Source: Pyropia yezoensis
Lineage: Eukaryota > Rhodophyta > Bangiophyceae > Bangiales > Bangiaceae
DNA: 64,000 nt
Direction: 5' to 3'
NCBI GenBank assembly: GCA_009829735.1
Contig: CM020618.1
Span: 10,259,119-10,323,118 of the forward strand
The notes under the pieces were generated by a model that searched no databases, had not been told where the DNA came from, and worked only from the letters and a program-made list of their open reading frames with translations. Within the stretch, counting starts at the first letter, position 1. The number at the start of each line of letters is the position of its first letter. The translations under genes were made by a program, and so were the position numbers. This document shows, one piece after another, positions 18,251 to 56,332 of the stretch.

Positions 18251-20731
18251 ATGACCTCAGACGACGATGACGACATGACGATTGCCCTTGCGTACCATCA
18301 CCGCCTTACCCTGCTCCGCCTCATACAACGACGGCGATTGATGTCGCGGATTACCCGCCGGCGGCGGGGCTCGCTGCCTGGCCGACGGCCAAACAAGGCC
18401 CGCGACTTTTCATCGGGCCTGAACGCCATCATGCGGGACTACTTTGGAGTGGACGGGCAGGAGCCCGTGTACGACGATGTCGATTTTGTGCGGCGCTTTC
18501 GCGTCCCGCGCGTCGTTTTTTGGCGCATCTATAACGACATCAAGCACGAGCCGTGGTGGGAGCAGCGACCCAATGCCACCGGGCTGCTGCAATCCCACCC
18601 TCTTCAGAAGCTGGTAGGGGCGTTCCGCGTGCTGGCATACGGGGAGAGCCCGGACCGCACGGACGAGTACGTCCGTCTGAGCAAGTCGACGGTTTCGATT
18701 GCCGTGAAGCGGCTGGTGGCGTTCATTTTGCGCAAGTACCAGTCTGAGTACCTGCGCGCCCCGACCAACGACGACCTGCAGCGGATTATGAGACGCAACG
18801 CGGAGAGGGGCTTTCCAGGGTGCATTGGCAGCCTAGACTGCTCCCACTGGGAGTGGAGGAACTGTCCAACCGCGCATGCCGGCATGTACCAGGACCGTTC
18901 CGGGAAGCGGACCATCGTCCTTGAGACGGTGTGCGACGAGGATATGTGGATTTGGCATATCTACGCGGGCGCACCCGGCAGCAACAACGACTTGAACGTG
19001 CTAGCGCACAGCCCACTCATGAGGAAGGTCACTCAGGGAGTGTGGCCCCCACGTGGTTTGTCCTTTTTTGTTGGTGGCACTCTCTTTCGCATGCCGTACT
19101 ATCTTGTGGACGGCATTTATCCTCGCTATGCATTTCTTGTCTCCCCTCATGCGCTGCCCGCCAATGACCAAGAGCGGACTTTCAACCGTCTTCAAGAGGC
19201 GCTCCGAAAGGACGTAGAGCGCCTTTACGCCGTACTGACCGCCAGGTTCCATGTGGCTCTGCACCCCGCGCGGTCTATGTCTGTGTCTTACCTAGTGTGC
19301 ATCGCCAAGGCCATAGCCATCCTTCACAATATGGTCACCGCGGAGCGTCGCGACAGGTATGTGTCGCGATCGCGCATCGGGTACGGCACCGGGAGACCAG
19401 GCGGGCAACACGGGTGCGGGTCGTGCGAATCTGATTGTGGTTGTGCGGGCGGGGCTGCCCCCAACGTCCGCGGCGGTGGGGGCGCGCGCGGCGGTGGTGG
19501 TGGCGACACTCGCGGTGCCGGTGGTGCGGGCGCCGGCGGCGGTGGTGGCGCGGGCGCCGGTGGTGGCGGCGACACTGGCGGTGCCGGTGGTGGGGGCGTC
19601 GGCGGCGGTGGTGGCGCCGGCCACGGTGGTGGCGGCCACACCGGCGGTGGCGGTGGCGGGAGCGCCGGCGGCGGTGGTGGCGCCGGCCGCGGTGGTGGTG
19701 GCCACACCGGCGGTGGCGGTGGCGGGGGCGACGGCGGCGGTGGTGGCGCCGGCCGAGGTGGTGGCGGCCACACCGGTGGTGGCGGTGGCGGGGGCGCCGG
19801 CGGCGGTGGTGGCGCCGGCCGCGGTGGTGGCGGCCACACCGGCGGTGACGGTGGCGGGGGCGCCGGCGGCGGTGGTGGCGCCGGCCGCGCTGGTGGCGCG
19901 GGCGCCGGTGCTGGCGGCGACACTGGCGGTGCCGGTGCTGCGGGCGTCGGCGGCGGTGGCGGCGCCGGCCGCGGTGGTGGCGGCGACACTGGCGGTGCCG
20001 GTGCTGCGGGTGCCGGCGGCGGTGGTGGCGCCGGTCTCGGTTGTGGCGCGGGCGCCGGTGGTGGCGGCGACACTGGCGGTGGCGGTGGGGGGGGCGCCGG
20101 TCTCGGTTGTGGCGCGGGCGCCGGTGGTGGCGGCGACACTGGCGGTGGCGGTGGGGGGGGCGTCGGCGTCGGTGGTGGCGCCGGCCGTGGTGGTGGCGGC
20201 CACACCGGCGGTGGCGGTGGTGAGGGCTCCGGCGGTGGTGCGGGCTCCGGCTGGCGTGTTGGGGCAGGCGGCGGTGGTGGTGCCGGCGGTGGTGGTGGTG
20301 TCGGCGCGGCGGGCGGCGGCGACACCGGCGGTGGCGGTGGCGGTGGCGCCGGCGCCGGTGGTGCAGGCCTGCCAGGGCCGGCCGTGGCCGACGCGGCCGG
20401 TGTTGTCTGTGGCGTGGGCGGGCCGATGAACGGAGGTGCTGCGGGTGGGGTGGGAGTCGCTGCAGGCGGGGGAGGAGGGGCGGGGGATGGAGCCGGCGGT
20501 GGGGGTGGTGCGGGCGCTGCCGCTGGAAACTGTGTGGCACCGGTTGGTGCTCAGGCTCTTCCTGTGGTTGTTCCCGCGGCCGATCCCGGCGAGGGTGTGT
20601 TTCTTCGAGCGCTTCTGGGCTGGTCGCGTGGAACGGACCGTGCGGTTCACACTGCGCTGAAGGACCGTCTCACAGCGCACGTGTGGGCTCGTCGGGAGGC
20701 CCTACTACGGCCGTATGAGGAAGAGGGATAA
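18251..20731 (+). CDS. PIF/Harbinger transposase (DDE_Tnp_4 / plant transposon protein type) with glycine-rich insertion
   Basis: This is a DDE endonuclease that cuts and joins the element ends; the protein has 826 residues. The start ATG at 18251 is followed by an acidic then basic head, and by a helix-turn-helix-like region (SKSTVSIAVKRLVAF). The catalytic core is complete: GCIGSLDCSHWEW with D196, GAPGSNNDLNVL with D247, and RKDVERLYAVL with E323. It also has the family's YYLVDGIYPRYAF block and LHNMV end. After about residue 395 the protein enters a Gly/Ala-rich stretch of over 300 residues encoded by a 66-bp minisatellite. The true C-terminus (FLRALLGWSRGTDRAVHTAL, then HVWARREALL), typical of this family, resumes in frame. 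The insertion is therefore internal. No stop or frameshift is visible, so the product may be functional. Confidence 0.85.
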   Translation: MTSDDDDDMTIALAYHHRLTLLRLIQRRRLMSRITRRRRGSLPGRRPNKARDFSSGLNAIMRDYFGVDGQEPVYDDVDFVRRFRVPRVVFWRIYNDIKHEPWWEQRPNATGLLQSHPLQKLVGAFRVLAYGESPDRTDEYVRLSKSTVSIAVKRLVAFILRKYQSEYLRAPTNDDLQRIMRRNAERGFPGCIGSLDCSHWEWRNCPTAHAGMYQDRSGKRTIVLETVCDEDMWIWHIYAGAPGSNNDLNVLAHSPLMRKVTQGVWPPRGLSFFVGGTLFRMPYYLVDGIYPRYAFLVSPHALPANDQERTFNRLQEALRKDVERLYAVLTARFHVALHPARSMSVSYLVCIAKAIAILHNMVTAERRDRYVSRSRIGYGTGRPGGQHGCGSCESDCGCAGGAAPNVRGGGGARGGGGGDTRGAGGAGAGGGGGAGAGGGGDTGGAGGGGVGGGGGAGHGGGGHTGGGGGGSAGGGGGAGRGGGGHTGGGGGGGDGGGGGAGRGGGGHTGGGGGGGAGGGGGAGRGGGGHTGGDGGGGAGGGGGAGRAGGAGAGAGGDTGGAGAAGVGGGGGAGRGGGGDTGGAGAAGAGGGGGAGLGCGAGAGGGGDTGGGGGGGAGLGCGAGAGGGGDTGGGGGGGVGVGGGAGRGGGGHTGGGGGEGSGGGAGSGWRVGAGGGGGAGGGGGVGAAGGGDTGGGGGGGAGAGGAGLPGPAVADAAGVVCGVGGPMNGGAAGGVGVAAGGGGGAGDGAGGGGGAGAAAGNCVAPVGAQALPVVVPAADPGEGVFLRALLGWSRGTDRAVHTALKDRLTAHVWARREALLRPYEEEG
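19460..20380 (+). repeat. 66-bp minisatellite coding for the glycine-rich part of the transposase
   Basis: Units of about 66 bp (22 codons) repeat with variation, giving GGGGAGRGGGGHTGGGG-type protein units, often with an HTGG or DTGG turn. Unit length is a multiple of three, so copy-number change keeps the frame. Repeats with CACACCGG and CGACACTGG variants alternate. Confidence 0.8.
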
Positions 20732-51256: not shown

Positions 51257-54200
51257 ATGGCCTCGCCGCCGACCACCGCCGCCGGTTCCGCGTCAAGGGC
51301 GGCGCTGTACGACCTGCCCGACCCTGCCAGCATCGACGACTGGGCTGCACTAATGCGTCCGGCAACAGGGCGGCTGGAGCTGGTCAAGGTGTCTAGGCTG
51401 ACTGGGAGGCTTTCCTTGCGTCCGGTTACCGTGTGGGTGCACTGTGGGGTGCACTACCAGCCGTGTCGCGGAAGTGCGGAGCCGTGCGAGGCCCCCAAGC
51501 CTGGGGAGCTGCCGTCGACGGCGGAGCACAGTCGGCATTTTGGTCACGTACCTTTGCGCCGCACAGGCGCGAACGGTAAGGATACGTTCACGGTGGATGT
51601 GTTTCGGACCGACTCTTCGATTGTCCTGAGCAGCTTGCGCGACCGGTGGGTGGTGGAGATCAAGGAGGCGGTAACCGAGAACGTGCTCCTGCGCCTGTGC
51701 GCAACCTCTGAGGAGGTGGCGGAAAGGTGGCGCAAGGAGCTGCGCATGCGGGCGGCTCCCCTGGTGGTGCTGATGGCATTGCCCGCGACGACGGCTGGGG
51801 CAGCCGGTGCGGACTTGGTGCCAGTGGCCAGGTCCTCGCGGTTGGATGCTCGCCGTGAGTGCCCGGCCAAGACCCTGGTCGAAGTCGCTGTGCAGCTGTT
51901 CGACAGTAGCATGACGGCGACTGCGACGGCGGTGGCGGGAGTGGTCACGGCCGAAGAGACGTACGACCTGGCGACGTCGGCGGGTCCCCTCGCGGGCGCA
52001 GTCCTGGGGGCTCTAGTGTTTGGGTTCCGTGTTGCTGTTGCGGTGAGCGCGGCTGCCCAGGACACTGCCGATGCAGCGACAGACCTCAATGAATTCCGCT
52101 CAACGTTGACAGATCACCTGCTTCCGGTGCTGCGGGACCTCGGGCGCAACCCTGATGATGCGGTGATGGGCATGATCAACCAACTGGGCGAGCTAGTGGG
52201 CGACATGGAGATGATGGCGGGTGAATTTCACCACGCGCTGCGCTCGGTGCGACGGCGGTGGTTTGTTGCACTGCGTGCGACGTGCCACGGGGTGGGGGTG
52301 GGGGACGGCATGAGCGTCCAGCTGCAGGCGCTTCGCACAAGGTCCAAGGAAACGTTGTGCCAGGTGCAGGTGAAGCTGCAGAGCGAGACGTTTGCAGTGG
52401 CCAAGCAGACCCAAAAAACTGTGCAGGTCCTTGCAGCCGCGCCGGTCGAGGCTGCGCGCAAGGACCTCCCTTCACTTCCAGAGGGCGTGTATGTGGACTG
52501 GACTGATGACTCTTCACCTGCTGTGCGTCTGCTCAAGGCGGTGATGGACAGGAGCCAACCTTCTGGCTTCTGCACGGCCATTTGCGCTCTAGGAATGGGC
52601 GGAGTGGGCAAGACCGTGTCGAGCCTGCTCGTGGCGCGTCAACTGCTGGAAACCGACGAAGGGCGTAGACGCTTCTCAGACGGCGTGCACTGGGTGCAAC
52701 TGTCGCGGAAGTCGCGCGAGATTGACGTGGTGAAGTGGATGTGCGACCTCGCCACGAACCTGAAGGGCTCCGTCGTTGGGGCCCCCGATATTGACATGGC
52801 GAGGCGCCACCAGCAAGGTGAGCTGGCCAATCGAAAGTGCTTGGTGATTGTGGATGATGTGTGGGAGTATCGGTGGGCTGCGCACTTTAGCGCGGCGTTT
52901 GAGGGGCAGACTACCTCGTCGCTGGTCGTGTCCACCCGCGATCGGAGAGTTGTCAGCATGCTGGCCGATGACCACGTTGTGGAAGTCCGTACCCTGTCTG
53001 AGCCTGTCGCAAAGGAGGTGCTCACCCGCGCGATGCGGCATGCGCCAGATCGCGCCGCCATTAGTGAAGGGCACTTGCAACAAGCCGTGTCCCTGTGCAG
53101 TGGGCATGCGTTAGCACTGTCTGTGATGGGTGCCCTCTTCCACAAGTTGGGCGGGGAGGAGTCTCTGAGGCTGGTGCGCTGTCGGGCAGCGCTTCTCCAG
53201 CAGAGTCTGCCTACGAGCGAGCATGCGCGCACTTACGCGTCGCTGCGTGCGTGCCTCAGCGCCAGCCATGAGGTGCTGAAGCGGCATGACGATGAGGGGG
53301 AGGTGTGTCGGCGGCACTTTCGCGCGCTGTGCGTGCTGCGCACCAAGGAGCTGCTGCCGTGGCGTGCGCTTGCGGCGCTGTGGGACGTGGACACGTTCGA
53401 GGCGGTGACGGAGATCGCGGGTCAGTTGCGTGAGCTGTCGCTGGTGCAGCTGGAAGGCGAGCAGTCCGACAAAGAGGCGTTTCGCTTGGGCCTGCATGAC
53501 CTGGTGGTGGAGTTCGTGAGGGGCTTGGTGCGTATGCTGCCAGAAGAGCGCGACGGTTTTCCTTGTCGACTTTTGGATGGCTACTGCTCGCACAACAAAG
53601 TCAACGAGACGATGGAGCCGGGGCCGTTGGGCGACGCAGGTGCGACTTTCCGGCCTCTGTGGAAGCTGCCGCAAGATGGTTACATTGAGCATGCCGTGTG
53701 CCATCTTCTCCACGCCTGTGGCGCGCAGCATCAACGGGAGCTGCAGGTGATGCTCCATGACATGCGCTTTATCGCGTGGCGGGTAGAGCTTGGGGAGGGG
53801 GCGTGCGGCGTGTACCGCGCGGACATTCGCGGTCGCGGCGTGGCCGTGCTGGACCGGGTGGCAACCGTGGTGGAGGGTGCGATGGTCAACCAAGCCCTGC
53901 CTATAGAGATGCGGCTAAAGCAGGCTGCGTTTGAGGTGGCCGAGCGGTGCAACAGCATGCTGGCGGGTGGCGGTGGGAGCTTCGAACAGGACCTGTTGGC
54001 CCACCTGTGTCGCACTGCACGGGCGTACCTGGGCAAGCCCGCTATTGAGTTGTTTGGACGTAGCAGGCTGGAGATGCCCGCGGAGCTGCGCGTTTTTCCT
54101 GGATCACGCCCCGTCCCGTGCATCTGCCCCTTGACAAGCGCCACCGGGGACAAGCTCTTGGTCGCCGCTGTCAACGGCAACAACCTGGAAGTGCGGACTG

Positions 54201-56332
54201 TAGATGACGGGTCTTGCGTGGCTCTACTAAAAGGCCACACGGACAATGTAAGCTGCTTGGCGGTTGTGGACGGCGGCGACAACGGGATGGGGCCGCGGGT
54301 CGTGTCGGGCGCGTACGACGGGACCGTGCGGGTGTGGGACGTGGATGGCAAGTCCGACGCGGTGGTGCTGACCGGCCACACTGGTTTCGTGACGTGCTTG
54401 GCGGTTGTGGACGGCGGCGGCGACGGGATGGGGCCGCGGGTCGTGTCGGGCGCGTACGACGGGACCGTGCGGGTGTGGGACGTGGATGGCAAGTCCGACG
54501 CGGTGGTGCTGACCGGCCACATTGGTTTGGTGACGTGCTTGGCGGTTGTGGACGGCGGCGGCGACGGGATAGGGCCGCGGGTCGTGTCGGGCGCGTACGA
54601 CGGGACCGTGCGGGTGTGGGACGTGGATGGCAAGTCCGACGCGGTGGTGCTGACCGGCGATACTGGTTTGGTGAGGTGCTTGGCGGTTGTGGACGGCGGC
54701 GGCGACGGGATAGGGCGGCGGGTCGTGTCGGGCGCGAACGACGGTACCGTGCGGGTGTGGGACGTGGATGGCAAGTCCGACGCGGTGGTGCTGACCGGCC
54801 ACACTGGTTTGGTGACGTGCTTGGCGGTTGTGGACGGCGGCGGCGACGGGATAGGGCGGCGGGTCGTGTCGGGCGCGAACGACGGTACCGTGCGGGTGTG
54901 GGACGTGGATGGCAAGTCCGACGCGGTGGTGCTGACGGGCCACATTGGTTCGGTGATGTGCTTGGCGGTTGTGGACGGCGGCGGCACCGGGATTGGGCCG
55001 CGGGTCGTGTCGGGCGCGGAGGACGGTACCGTGCGGGTGTGGGACGTGGATGGCAAGTCCGACGCGGTGGTGCTGACCGGCCACCCGGACTGGGTGAGGT
55101 GCTTGGCGGTTGTGGACGGCGGCGGCGACGGGATGGGGCCGCGGGTCGTGTCGGGCGCGGAGGACGGTACCGTGCGGGTGTGGGACGTGGATGGCAAGTC
55201 CGACGCGGTGGTGCTGACCGGCCACATTGGTTTGGTGAGGTGCTTGGTGGTTGTGGACGGCGGCGGCGACGGGATAGGGCCGCGGGTCGTGTCGGGCGCG
55301 GAGGACGGTACCGTGCGGGTGTGGGACGTGGATGGCAAGTCCGACGCGGTGGTGCTGACCGGCCACACTGGTTCGGTGAGGTGCTTGGCGGTCGTGGACG
55401 GCGGCGGCGACGGGATAGGGCGGCGGGTCGTGTCGAGCGCGGAGGACGGTACCGTGCGGGTGTGGGACGTGGATGGCAAGTCCGACGCGGTGGTGCTGAC
55501 CGGCCACACTGGTTCGGTGACGTGCTTGGCGGTCGTGGACGGCGGCGGCGACGGGATAGGGCCGCGGGTCGTGTCGGGCGCGTTCGACGGGACCGTGCGG
55601 GTGTGGGACGTGGATGGCAAGTCCGACGCGGTGGTGCTGACCGGCCACACGGACTGGGTGACGTGCGTGGCGGTTGTGGACGGCGGCGGCGACGGGATAG
55701 GGCCGCGGGTCGTGTCGGGCGCGTACGACGGGACCGTGCGGGTGTGGGACGTGGATGGCAAGTCCGACGCGGTGGTGCTGACCGGCCACACGGACTGGGT
55801 GACGTACTTGGCGGTTGTGGACGGCGGCGGCAACGGGATTGGGCCGCGGGTCGTGTCGAGCGCGGAGGACGGTACCGTGCGGGTGTGGGACGTGGATGGC
55901 AAGTCCGACGCGGTGGTGCTGACCGGCGATACTGGTTTGGTGAGGTGCTTGGCGGTTGTGGACGGCGGCGGCGACGGGATAGGGCCGCGGGTCGTGTCGG
56001 GCGCGGAGGACGGTACCGTGCGGGTGTGGGACGTGGAGAAGCAGTGTATTGTTCACCCGCGTCAGGGCGATTCCGCCTTGTTGGCTACGTCAAGATGGCC
56101 TCGAGACGCTTCTGGCGATGGAGCAAGTTCTGGTTTGTTAGGTGGGGCGGTTGCGCTCGTTGCCGGTGATGGCACTTGTACGTTGGTGAACACGCGCAGC
56201 GGCAAGTCGCATCATCTTGTCTGTCCTCGTGACGTTCTGAGTCTGTGCTGCTTCACTGGGGGACGCATGGCGTTTGGGACGCGCTCGGGAGGTGTATTTT
56301 TTGGCCGCGTTGACTGGGACGGCGCCGTATAG
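51257..56332 (+). CDS. NLR/STAND-like NB-ARC protein with 13 near-identical WD40 repeats
   Basis: I place the start at the ATG at 51257 (MASPPTTAAGSASRAALYDL), giving 1,691 residues. Residues of about 37-163 look like a PH domain (GRLELVKVSRLTGRLSLRPV through to RWVVEIKEAVTE and EEVAERWRKEL). Residues of about 200-420 are helical with a hydrophobic stretch (AGAVLGALVFGFRVAVAV), possibly a membrane-active four-helix bundle. NB-ARC follows: Walker A GMGGVGKT (K452), Walker B CLVIVDDVWE (D533/D534), SSLVVSTRDRR (sensor), CSGHALALSVMG (GLPL-like) and GLHDLVVEF (MHD-like, H747/D748). From residue 993 come 13 WD40 repeats of 47 residues with DGTVRVWDVDGKSDAVVLTG as the constant part, then a short non-repeat tail. 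STAND proteins switch from ADP to ATP on ligand sensing by the repeats. In fungi this layout controls heterokaryon incompatibility. The role in innate or self recognition is inferred. Confidence 0.85.
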   Translation: MASPPTTAAGSASRAALYDLPDPASIDDWAALMRPATGRLELVKVSRLTGRLSLRPVTVWVHCGVHYQPCRGSAEPCEAPKPGELPSTAEHSRHFGHVPLRRTGANGKDTFTVDVFRTDSSIVLSSLRDRWVVEIKEAVTENVLLRLCATSEEVAERWRKELRMRAAPLVVLMALPATTAGAAGADLVPVARSSRLDARRECPAKTLVEVAVQLFDSSMTATATAVAGVVTAEETYDLATSAGPLAGAVLGALVFGFRVAVAVSAAAQDTADAATDLNEFRSTLTDHLLPVLRDLGRNPDDAVMGMINQLGELVGDMEMMAGEFHHALRSVRRRWFVALRATCHGVGVGDGMSVQLQALRTRSKETLCQVQVKLQSETFAVAKQTQKTVQVLAAAPVEAARKDLPSLPEGVYVDWTDDSSPAVRLLKAVMDRSQPSGFCTAICALGMGGVGKTVSSLLVARQLLETDEGRRRFSDGVHWVQLSRKSREIDVVKWMCDLATNLKGSVVGAPDIDMARRHQQGELANRKCLVIVDDVWEYRWAAHFSAAFEGQTTSSLVVSTRDRRVVSMLADDHVVEVRTLSEPVAKEVLTRAMRHAPDRAAISEGHLQQAVSLCSGHALALSVMGALFHKLGGEESLRLVRCRAALLQQSLPTSEHARTYASLRACLSASHEVLKRHDDEGEVCRRHFRALCVLRTKELLPWRALAALWDVDTFEAVTEIAGQLRELSLVQLEGEQSDKEAFRLGLHDLVVEFVRGLVRMLPEERDGFPCRLLDGYCSHNKVNETMEPGPLGDAGATFRPLWKLPQDGYIEHAVCHLLHACGAQHQRELQVMLHDMRFIAWRVELGEGACGVYRADIRGRGVAVLDRVATVVEGAMVNQALPIEMRLKQAAFEVAERCNSMLAGGGGSFEQDLLAHLCRTARAYLGKPAIELFGRSRLEMPAELRVFPGSRPVPCICPLTSATGDKLLVAAVNGNNLEVRTVDDGSCVALLKGHTDNVSCLAVVDGGDNGMGPRVVSGAYDGTVRVWDVDGKSDAVVLTGHTGFVTCLAVVDGGGDGMGPRVVSGAYDGTVRVWDVDGKSDAVVLTGHIGLVTCLAVVDGGGDGIGPRVVSGAYDGTVRVWDVDGKSDAVVLTGDTGLVRCLAVVDGGGDGIGRRVVSGANDGTVRVWDVDGKSDAVVLTGHTGLVTCLAVVDGGGDGIGRRVVSGANDGTVRVWDVDGKSDAVVLTGHIGSVMCLAVVDGGGTGIGPRVVSGAEDGTVRVWDVDGKSDAVVLTGHPDWVRCLAVVDGGGDGMGPRVVSGAEDGTVRVWDVDGKSDAVVLTGHIGLVRCLVVVDGGGDGIGPRVVSGAEDGTVRVWDVDGKSDAVVLTGHTGSVRCLAVVDGGGDGIGRRVVSSAEDGTVRVWDVDGKSDAVVLTGHTGSVTCLAVVDGGGDGIGPRVVSGAFDGTVRVWDVDGKSDAVVLTGHTDWVTCVAVVDGGGDGIGPRVVSGAYDGTVRVWDVDGKSDAVVLTGHTDWVTYLAVVDGGGNGIGPRVVSSAEDGTVRVWDVDGKSDAVVLTGDTGLVRCLAVVDGGGDGIGPRVVSGAEDGTVRVWDVEKQCIVHPRQGDSALLATSRWPRDASGDGASSGLLGGAVALVAGDGTCTLVNTRSGKSHHLVCPRDVLSLCCFTGGRMAFGTRSGGVFFGRVDWDGAV
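54233..56065 (+). repeat. 13 tandem 141-bp units encoding WD40 blades
   Basis: Units begin at GGC of the GH(T/I/P) codons every 141 bp. They are almost identical at the DNA level, including silent positions. Differences cluster at protein positions 3-5 and 7 (for example TGF, IGL, TGS, PDW, TDW), 19, 21 and 28 (Tyr, Asn, Glu or Phe before DGTVRVWD). Units 4 and 13 have GD instead of GH at the start. Confidence 0.9.

Follow-up and report, generated by a model that had tools for sequence, protein, structure and literature searches.

A family of NB-ARC-WD40 genes in the red alga Pyropia yezoensis, some with blades homogenised within genes and variable at HNWD-equivalent positions

The 64,000 nucleotides analyzed here (the window; positions 10,259,119 to 10,323,118 of contig CM020618.1, Pyropia yezoensis) contain, at 51257..56332 on the + strand, a gene that probably encodes an Apaf-1-like STAND receptor of the NLR type, in which WD40 propellers would act as a fast-diversifying recognition surface. 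The encoded protein joins an NB-ARC NTPase to an array of closely similar WD40 blades and has paralogues in the same genome. Its array is one of several in which the blades are homogenised within the gene and vary at a few positions equivalent to those under positive selection in the fungal HNWD family. The genome analyzed comprised 107.5 Mb in 11 contigs, the window lying on contig C1 (43,592,136 bases).

Results

The NTPase of the window protein is an NB-ARC domain of the Apaf-1 kind. The Pfam profile PF00931 matched residues 441-636 (52577..53164, +) with a score of 67.6 bits (cut-off 23.5; E 1.3e-18), and the P-loop GMGGVGKT (446-453) and the Walker B motif LVIVDDV are present in this domain. 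GHALAL stands at the GLPL site and LHDL at the MHD site (residues 746-749; 53492..53503, +) of the winged-helix domain, around which a weak match to APAF-1-like_WHD, below its cut-off, was obtained (E 0.0046). An HD2-like helical region follows (residues 755-925; 53519..54031, +), inside the stretch aligned to Apaf-1; the order NBD-HD1-WHD-HD2 is present, and Apaf-1 was the best structural match of the window model. The complete NB-ARC ATPase claimed in the first-pass annotation was therefore recovered by profile search, and its assignment to NLR-like STAND genes is consistent with the profile score, which exceeds the curated cut-off, with the motifs of P-loop, Walker B and MHD type, and with a C-terminal repeat sensor of WD40 type.

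This sensor opens with a divergent N-terminal blade (residues 952-990; 54110..54226, +), continues with 13 canonical WD40 units of 47 amino acids at a period of 141 bases (54227..56056, +) and ends in a divergent tail of about two blades with VFFGRV near its end (56057..56329, +). Thirteen WD40 stretches pass the Pfam cut-off, and Tandem Repeats Finder reported a 141-base unit in 12.7 copies with 94% matches (54254-56037), its score of 3078 being the highest among the 96 tandem rows of the window. Mean identity between units is 86% in protein and 91% in DNA (lowest pair 0.65), so that the 13 nearly identical blades described earlier are indeed there, but flanked by one divergent blade before and about two after them. 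These likely close the first and the second propeller, respectively, and the sensor as modeled would probably form two propellers with ends closed by divergent blades, an arrangement in which we place modest confidence. Double- and eight-bladed propellers are known from Gemin5 and Rsa4.

Blades evolve in concert within the gene, and they do so in some family members only. For the comparison of units, 15 of the 25 frames with unit hits were entered; frames of a locus already represented (two of L005, two of L015, the second of L014, and L016), the two frames of the duplicate L013 and the weak arrays of L010 and L037 were left out, and units starting after model position 6 or ending before position 38 were excluded. 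Eight arrays were homogenised, with mean unit identities of 0.80-0.89 in protein and 0.87-0.94 in DNA: those of the window gene, L002, L006, L009, L011, L019 and the broken L014 locus, all with NB-ARC, and as the eighth that of L017; L008 (four units, identity 0.83) was kept out of this set because of its array length. For 100 of the 101 units in the eight arrays the closest unit lies in the same gene, and same-register and off-register distances differ by at most 0.011 in the 15 gene pairs compared. Two pairs of close relatives show the two regimes. In L012 and L020, whose NB regions are 84% identical, the same-place unit is the best match for seven of nine L012 units, whereas in L002 and L006, with NB regions 89% identical, this holds for only 2 of 13 L002 units, and the best matches of all 13 fall on three L006 units. 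This contrast indicates concerted evolution of blades within genes in only some members of the family.

Variation within the homogenised arrays is focused at few positions. Entropy and position-set tests covered unit positions 1-40, and the rate test discussed below positions 1-46. Mean entropy over the eight arrays was 1.91 at position 30, 1.76 at 7, 1.35 at 9, 1.25 at 6 and 1.22 at 32, followed by position 5 at 0.64 and all others at 0.51 or less; the near-fixed V8 lies between 7 and 9, and D31, for which no amino-acid change was counted, between 30 and 32. Only two of the 91,390 four-position sets, the set itself included, equaled or exceeded {7,9,30,32}, which was matched by none of 20,000 permutations. 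Within the window array, the most variable positions are 7, 30 and 9, then 5, 19 and 6, and 12 of the 13 units carry distinct combinations at 7, 9, 30 and 32. The codons 7, 9, 25 and 27 of the Podospora HNWD unit are under strong positive selection, lie on the propeller top and flank the conserved positions 8 and 26 (PMC1805685); because five extra algal residues lie between the two groups of positions, HNWD 25 and 27 correspond to algal 30 and 32. Seven positions (10, 11, 12, 14, 30, 32 and 39) are used in PMC12222747, which would be 5, 6, 7, 9, 25, 27 and 34 in the older numbering if, as we infer, the numbering is shifted by five. The coincidence of positions 7, 9, 30 and 32 with the positively selected HNWD codons is strong, and by analogy with HNWD the variable algal residues would lie on the top face of the propeller (PMC1805685). 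The HNWD-like mode of array evolution proposed in the first-pass annotation was thus found in both its aspects, homogenisation within the gene and variation focused at HNWD-equivalent positions. The eighth homogenised array, that of L017 (C1:36369436-36373590), has eight units in an ankyrin-WD40 gene and is highly variable at 32, 30, 2, 7, 6 and 9.

Profile search of the contigs placed NB-ARC matches above cut-off at 32 places in the genome. The 17 loci scoring at least 61 bits all match the head of the window protein and have WD40 unit hits, the head match being partial in two of them (in L010 it begins at head residue 99 and in L037 at 125), and the search for paralogues thus returned 17 loci in which head, NB-ARC and WD40 occur together. 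The other 15 score 49.7 bits or less; nine of these were examined as stretches cut at about 3.6 kb, and TPR was found above cut-off in six and in none of the remaining three. Two of the six with TPR, L046 and L049, combine a trypsin-like peptidase with NB-ARC and TPR, an unusual protease-headed NLR-like architecture of which one gene is listed for this species (PMC6928737). NB regions are 35-47% identical to that of the window gene in the nine family members compared. Thirteen unit hits were counted in eight genes (L001, L002, L004, L006, L007, L009, the L016/L018 gene and L019), some L007 hits being split halves, and 5, 8, 9, 10, 12 or 18 in the remaining genes. The idea that ring closure fixes the number of units at 13 was rejected, given these counts of 5 to 18 and the one extra degenerate blade in both L002 and L006. 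Some members look broken: L013 and L037 are interrupted, and at 13.54 Mb of C3 stops lie between the NB-ARC part and a long array. The latter locus (L014/L005/L015, C3:13539252-13548019) has a very long near-identical array with 18 units in one frame, and stops and frame changes interrupt the sequence between this array and the NB-ARC part. L007 (C3) and L013 (C2), 99.7% identical over 5,773 bases, are copies of one family member duplicated recently between chromosomes, and the L013 array is split over two frames.

The same pattern was met outside the Bangiophyceae. An array search found P0024 of Chondrus crispus (Florideophyceae), a protein of 1981 amino acids with TIR and NB-ARC among its precomputed domains and 23 WD40 units, of which the 21 usable ones are 85% identical. 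Its most variable positions are exactly 7, 30, 9 and 32; position 6 comes next, after which the value drops from 2.24 to 0.72, and only one of 91,390 sets, {7,9,30,32} itself, reaches the sum of this set. On visual inspection, P0024 contains one run of five units twice, the two copies differing in one unit. Among the other array-search relatives the signal for {7,9,30,32} was clear in P0008 (4 sets) and P0021 (21 sets), the latter being by sequence the annotated copy of L002, and weaker in P0022 (502 sets), P0013 (471) and P0023 (911), with unit identities of 0.47-0.61. The hypervariability pattern, clear in homogenised arrays and weak or lost in divergent ones, is therefore a property of homogenised arrays and does not characterize the family as a whole. 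A single near-identical relative of the window protein turned up, P0002, with 96.4% identity over 1030 residues, and its array consists of one unit that starts like the first and ends like the last of the window units. This reduction is probably an assembly collapse, and the source label "lgn" presumably stands for Logan, which assembles short reads; receptors of this kind may be missed in many algal assemblies through such collapse. Named relatives are P0018 (BU14_0048s0005) of Porphyra umbilicalis and P0004/P0021 (I4F81_003904, I4F81_005506) of Pyropia yezoensis.

The N-terminal part was described in the first-pass annotation as a PH-like head followed by a helical segment. Both are visible in the structure model, which shows eight strands and a C-terminal helix in residues 36-165 (51362..51751, +) and helices in residues 202-400 (51860..52456, +), with long ones at 243-296, 301-329, 331-343 and 348-392; a sequence family for them was not recovered, as no Pfam family matched residues 1-434 and the only pointer to PH was a weak one (2d9v, E 0.97, in a PDB search with the head profile). 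We regard the PH-like fold of residues 36-165 with modest confidence and the helical segment as a candidate output domain, both as judged from the model. The PDB search gave nothing significant, the best E value (0.029) belonging to a designed protein. Pfam matches to a CARD were absent from residues 1-434, the head not having been fold-searched alone, and so were matches to a HET domain, where the model instead shows the PH-like strands and helices. Several CNL rows of the fold search with the whole model start at model residues 244-273 with a root mean square deviation above 16, the head not being separately matched. Rows for HeLo or MLKL did not appear, an absence that carries no weight because these searches did not probe the head by itself. 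Shorter stand-alone relatives of the head (about 239-760 amino acids) numbered zero at E 1e-3 among 7991 scored, and from its sequence the head appears to belong to no known family. A relative of the PH-like head was found at G000:C1:16983763-16984311 (-), 36% identical over head residues 4-173 in a frame of 381 amino acids; it is not among the genome NB-ARC matches and might be an adaptor or a fragment.

The receptor gene is a single open frame of 1691 codons plus stop (51257..56332, +), in agreement with its earlier description as one uninterrupted gene. The same frame is open upstream as far back as 50492; ATG 51257 is preferred as the start because a methionine lies ten columns from it in five of the ten aligned paralogues (L002, L003, L006, L008 and L016). 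The locus very probably belongs to chromosome 1 of Pyropia yezoensis, a cultivated red alga of the Bangiophyceae, the first-pass annotation having likewise pointed to a probable red alga as host. Bacterial contamination was considered and rejected, since a eukaryotic gene with a Dopey domain (Pfam) adjoins on the opposite strand and the contig is of chromosome scale. The window protein was absent from the matches of two protein searches expected to return it, so that the gene may be unannotated or wrongly modeled in protein records. Elsewhere in the window, a frame at 18251-20731 (+) carries Plant_tran (E 5e-63) and DDE_Tnp_4 transposase domains, and downstream it consists of GC-rich 66-base units arranged in tandem.

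Discussion

By analogy with Apaf-1 and NLRs, we propose that the receptor rests as an ADP-bound monomer and that the top faces of the propellers bind a ligand, for which an effector of a pathogen or a host protein modified by one is the most likely candidate. Binding would release the NB-ARC core, permit exchange of ADP for ATP and lead to a wheel-like oligomer, in which the gathered PH-like and helical heads might act at the membrane or recruit partners, with defence or cell death as the outcome. New specificities would arise as blades are duplicated and converted inside the gene, in concerted evolution, and selection, presumably exerted by pathogens, would maintain diversity at the few top-face residues of each blade.

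The pattern might also have arisen without diversifying selection or fast recognition: GC-rich repeats of 141 bases could undergo slippage and conversion in the manner of a minisatellite, and positions 6, 7, 9, 30 and 32 could vary as the least constrained surface positions of WD40. Such neutral homogenisation is unlikely in our judgment. The pN/pS ratio at codons 7, 9, 30 and 32 exceeds 1 in seven of the eight arrays, against 0.19-0.86 for codons outside 5, 6, 7, 9, 30 and 32, and our own site-wise likelihood test over 46 sites gave beta greater than alpha at nominal p of 0.014-0.023 only at 7, 9, 30 and 32, exactly the four HNWD sites, with beta/alpha of 2.9-7.3. The sharp drop from variable to fixed positions recurs in the Chondrus array, whose unit sequence and head are different, and homogenisation affected some members and not others of similar NB-region divergence. 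Several results nevertheless weigh against diversifying recognition. None of the four sites stays significant after Bonferroni correction for 46 tests; on a star tree the nominal sites are 6, 9 and 32, positions 7 (p 0.072) and 30 (p 0.15) missing the threshold, and recombination between blades inflates rate tests of this kind. In the L014 array, which belongs to a broken locus, pN/pS at the four codons is 0.47. The window array taken alone ranks 7, 30 and 9 first to third, but its position 32 is invariant and 58 of 91,390 sets are equal or better. All arrays were aligned to a profile built from the window's own units, and in the six arrays that are not homogenised (mean unit identity 0.41-0.62) the same positions again rank with the most variable. 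All four positions were in the top six in only 3 (P0008, P0009 and P0010) of the 15 first-search relatives with at least five usable units, which have mostly divergent arrays (unit identity 0.36-0.75). Arrays of the homogenised type are not confined to NLRs, as the ankyrin-WD40 gene L017 carries one and is not among the genome NB-ARC matches. The coincidence of positions is strong and, the site tests being nominal only, the proof of positive selection at 7, 9, 30 and 32 weak.

If the propellers are a diversifying recognition surface, they could sense conspecific non-self at cell contact or fusion, like HET-D and HET-E, rather than pathogens. The evolutionary pattern is the one reported for fungal allorecognition genes; pathogen sensors would, however, be expected to show the same, and we know of no partner locus, incompatibility system or incompatibility phenotype in Pyropia yezoensis. 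Seven NB-ARC+WD40 genes of this species have been listed as putative R proteins, of which three are up-regulated in red rot and four are not induced by that paper's criterion (PMC6928737), the latter being a further point against our preferred reading. Because some listed family members are induced in red rot, we consider pathogen sensing likelier than allorecognition, to which we give only a small chance; the evidence is thin and comes from family members not matched to the window gene. A conserved Apaf-1-like initiator of developmental or stress cell death, its propellers binding one constant host ligand, would suit a motor closest to Apaf-1, an HD2 and what is probably a double propeller, both as in Apaf-1, but it is improbable, fitting poorly with 17 divergent loci and diversified blades.

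Our preferred reading thus remains a receptor with diversifying propellers. A wider one, whose chances we put a little short of even, is that red algae as a phylum use diversifying intracellular recognition on the HNWD principle, combining blade shuffling and diversifying selection at four top-face sites per blade with exchangeable heads, PH-like/helical in the Bangiales and TIR in Chondrus, independently of fungi. If so, the system would have arisen separately from the fungal one and on a different NTPase. The same hypervariable positions occur in fungi, in Bangiophyceae and in one Florideophycean protein despite different NTPases and heads, and this coincidence across fungi and red algae would clearly exemplify the repeated evolution of a single recognition design. 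Little is known of how red algae recognize pathogens or non-self, and as the variable residues can be predicted from sequence, association between arrays and red rot resistance can be tested in strains of this crop seaweed.

The first-pass annotation had regarded the architecture as little described outside fungi, animals, plants and bacteria, a view that needs correcting. NB-ARC-WD40 proteins of red algae, this species included, have already been published and hence are not new: in Chondrus crispus, NB-WD40 accounts for 58 of the 61 NB-encoding genes (PMC7145615), the genes of Pyropia yezoensis are listed in PMC6928737, and the architecture also appears in PMC8891106 and NB-ARC families of Porphyra umbilicalis in PMC8307928. 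These genes share with the window gene the organism or phylum and the order NB-ARC then WD40; the excerpts of those reports concern domain content and expression only and say nothing of high internal conservation, concerted evolution or hypervariable positions. Our search of the open-access literature returned no report on red algae of homogenised arrays or of hypervariable positions in their blades. Internal high conservation is rare outside fungal NLRs, at 0.4% of such repeats in Viridiplantae and 0.8% in Metazoa, the excerpt with these figures giving none for red algae (PMC4986451).

Among characterized systems, the apoptosome proteins Apaf-1 and Dark share with the window protein NB-ARC-HD1-WHD-HD2 followed by WD40 blades, which in the window protein probably form two rings; unlike them, the window protein has no CARD match, carries a PH-like and helical head and has near-identical, diversifying blades. 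Membership of the HNWD family was rejected because the NTPase is an NB-ARC closest to Apaf-1 and not the fungal NACHT, and no HET domain was found in residues 1-434. The unit has 47 amino acids in the alga and 42 in HNWD, and 13 unit hits recur in eight algal genes in contrast to the variable number in the fungus. The likeness to HNWD/HET-E, HET-D and HET-R of Podospora anserina lies in a STAND receptor with units more than 80% identical within a gene (on average 0.86 in the window gene, 0.80-0.89 in the eight arrays), in concerted evolution, in variation focused at residues flanking two conserved positions per blade and, for HET-E, in a modeled pair of rings that divergent blades complete (PMC12222747). 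The NB-ARC-TPR and LRR-ROCO genes of brown algae are also candidate algal immune receptors with shuffled repeats, and four sites per LRR are under positive selection in the ROCO genes (PMC11378527). There, each LRR is an exon of its own and diversity comes from exon exchange and alternative splicing (PMC11378527), whereas the gene described here is an uninterrupted frame with homogenised blades.
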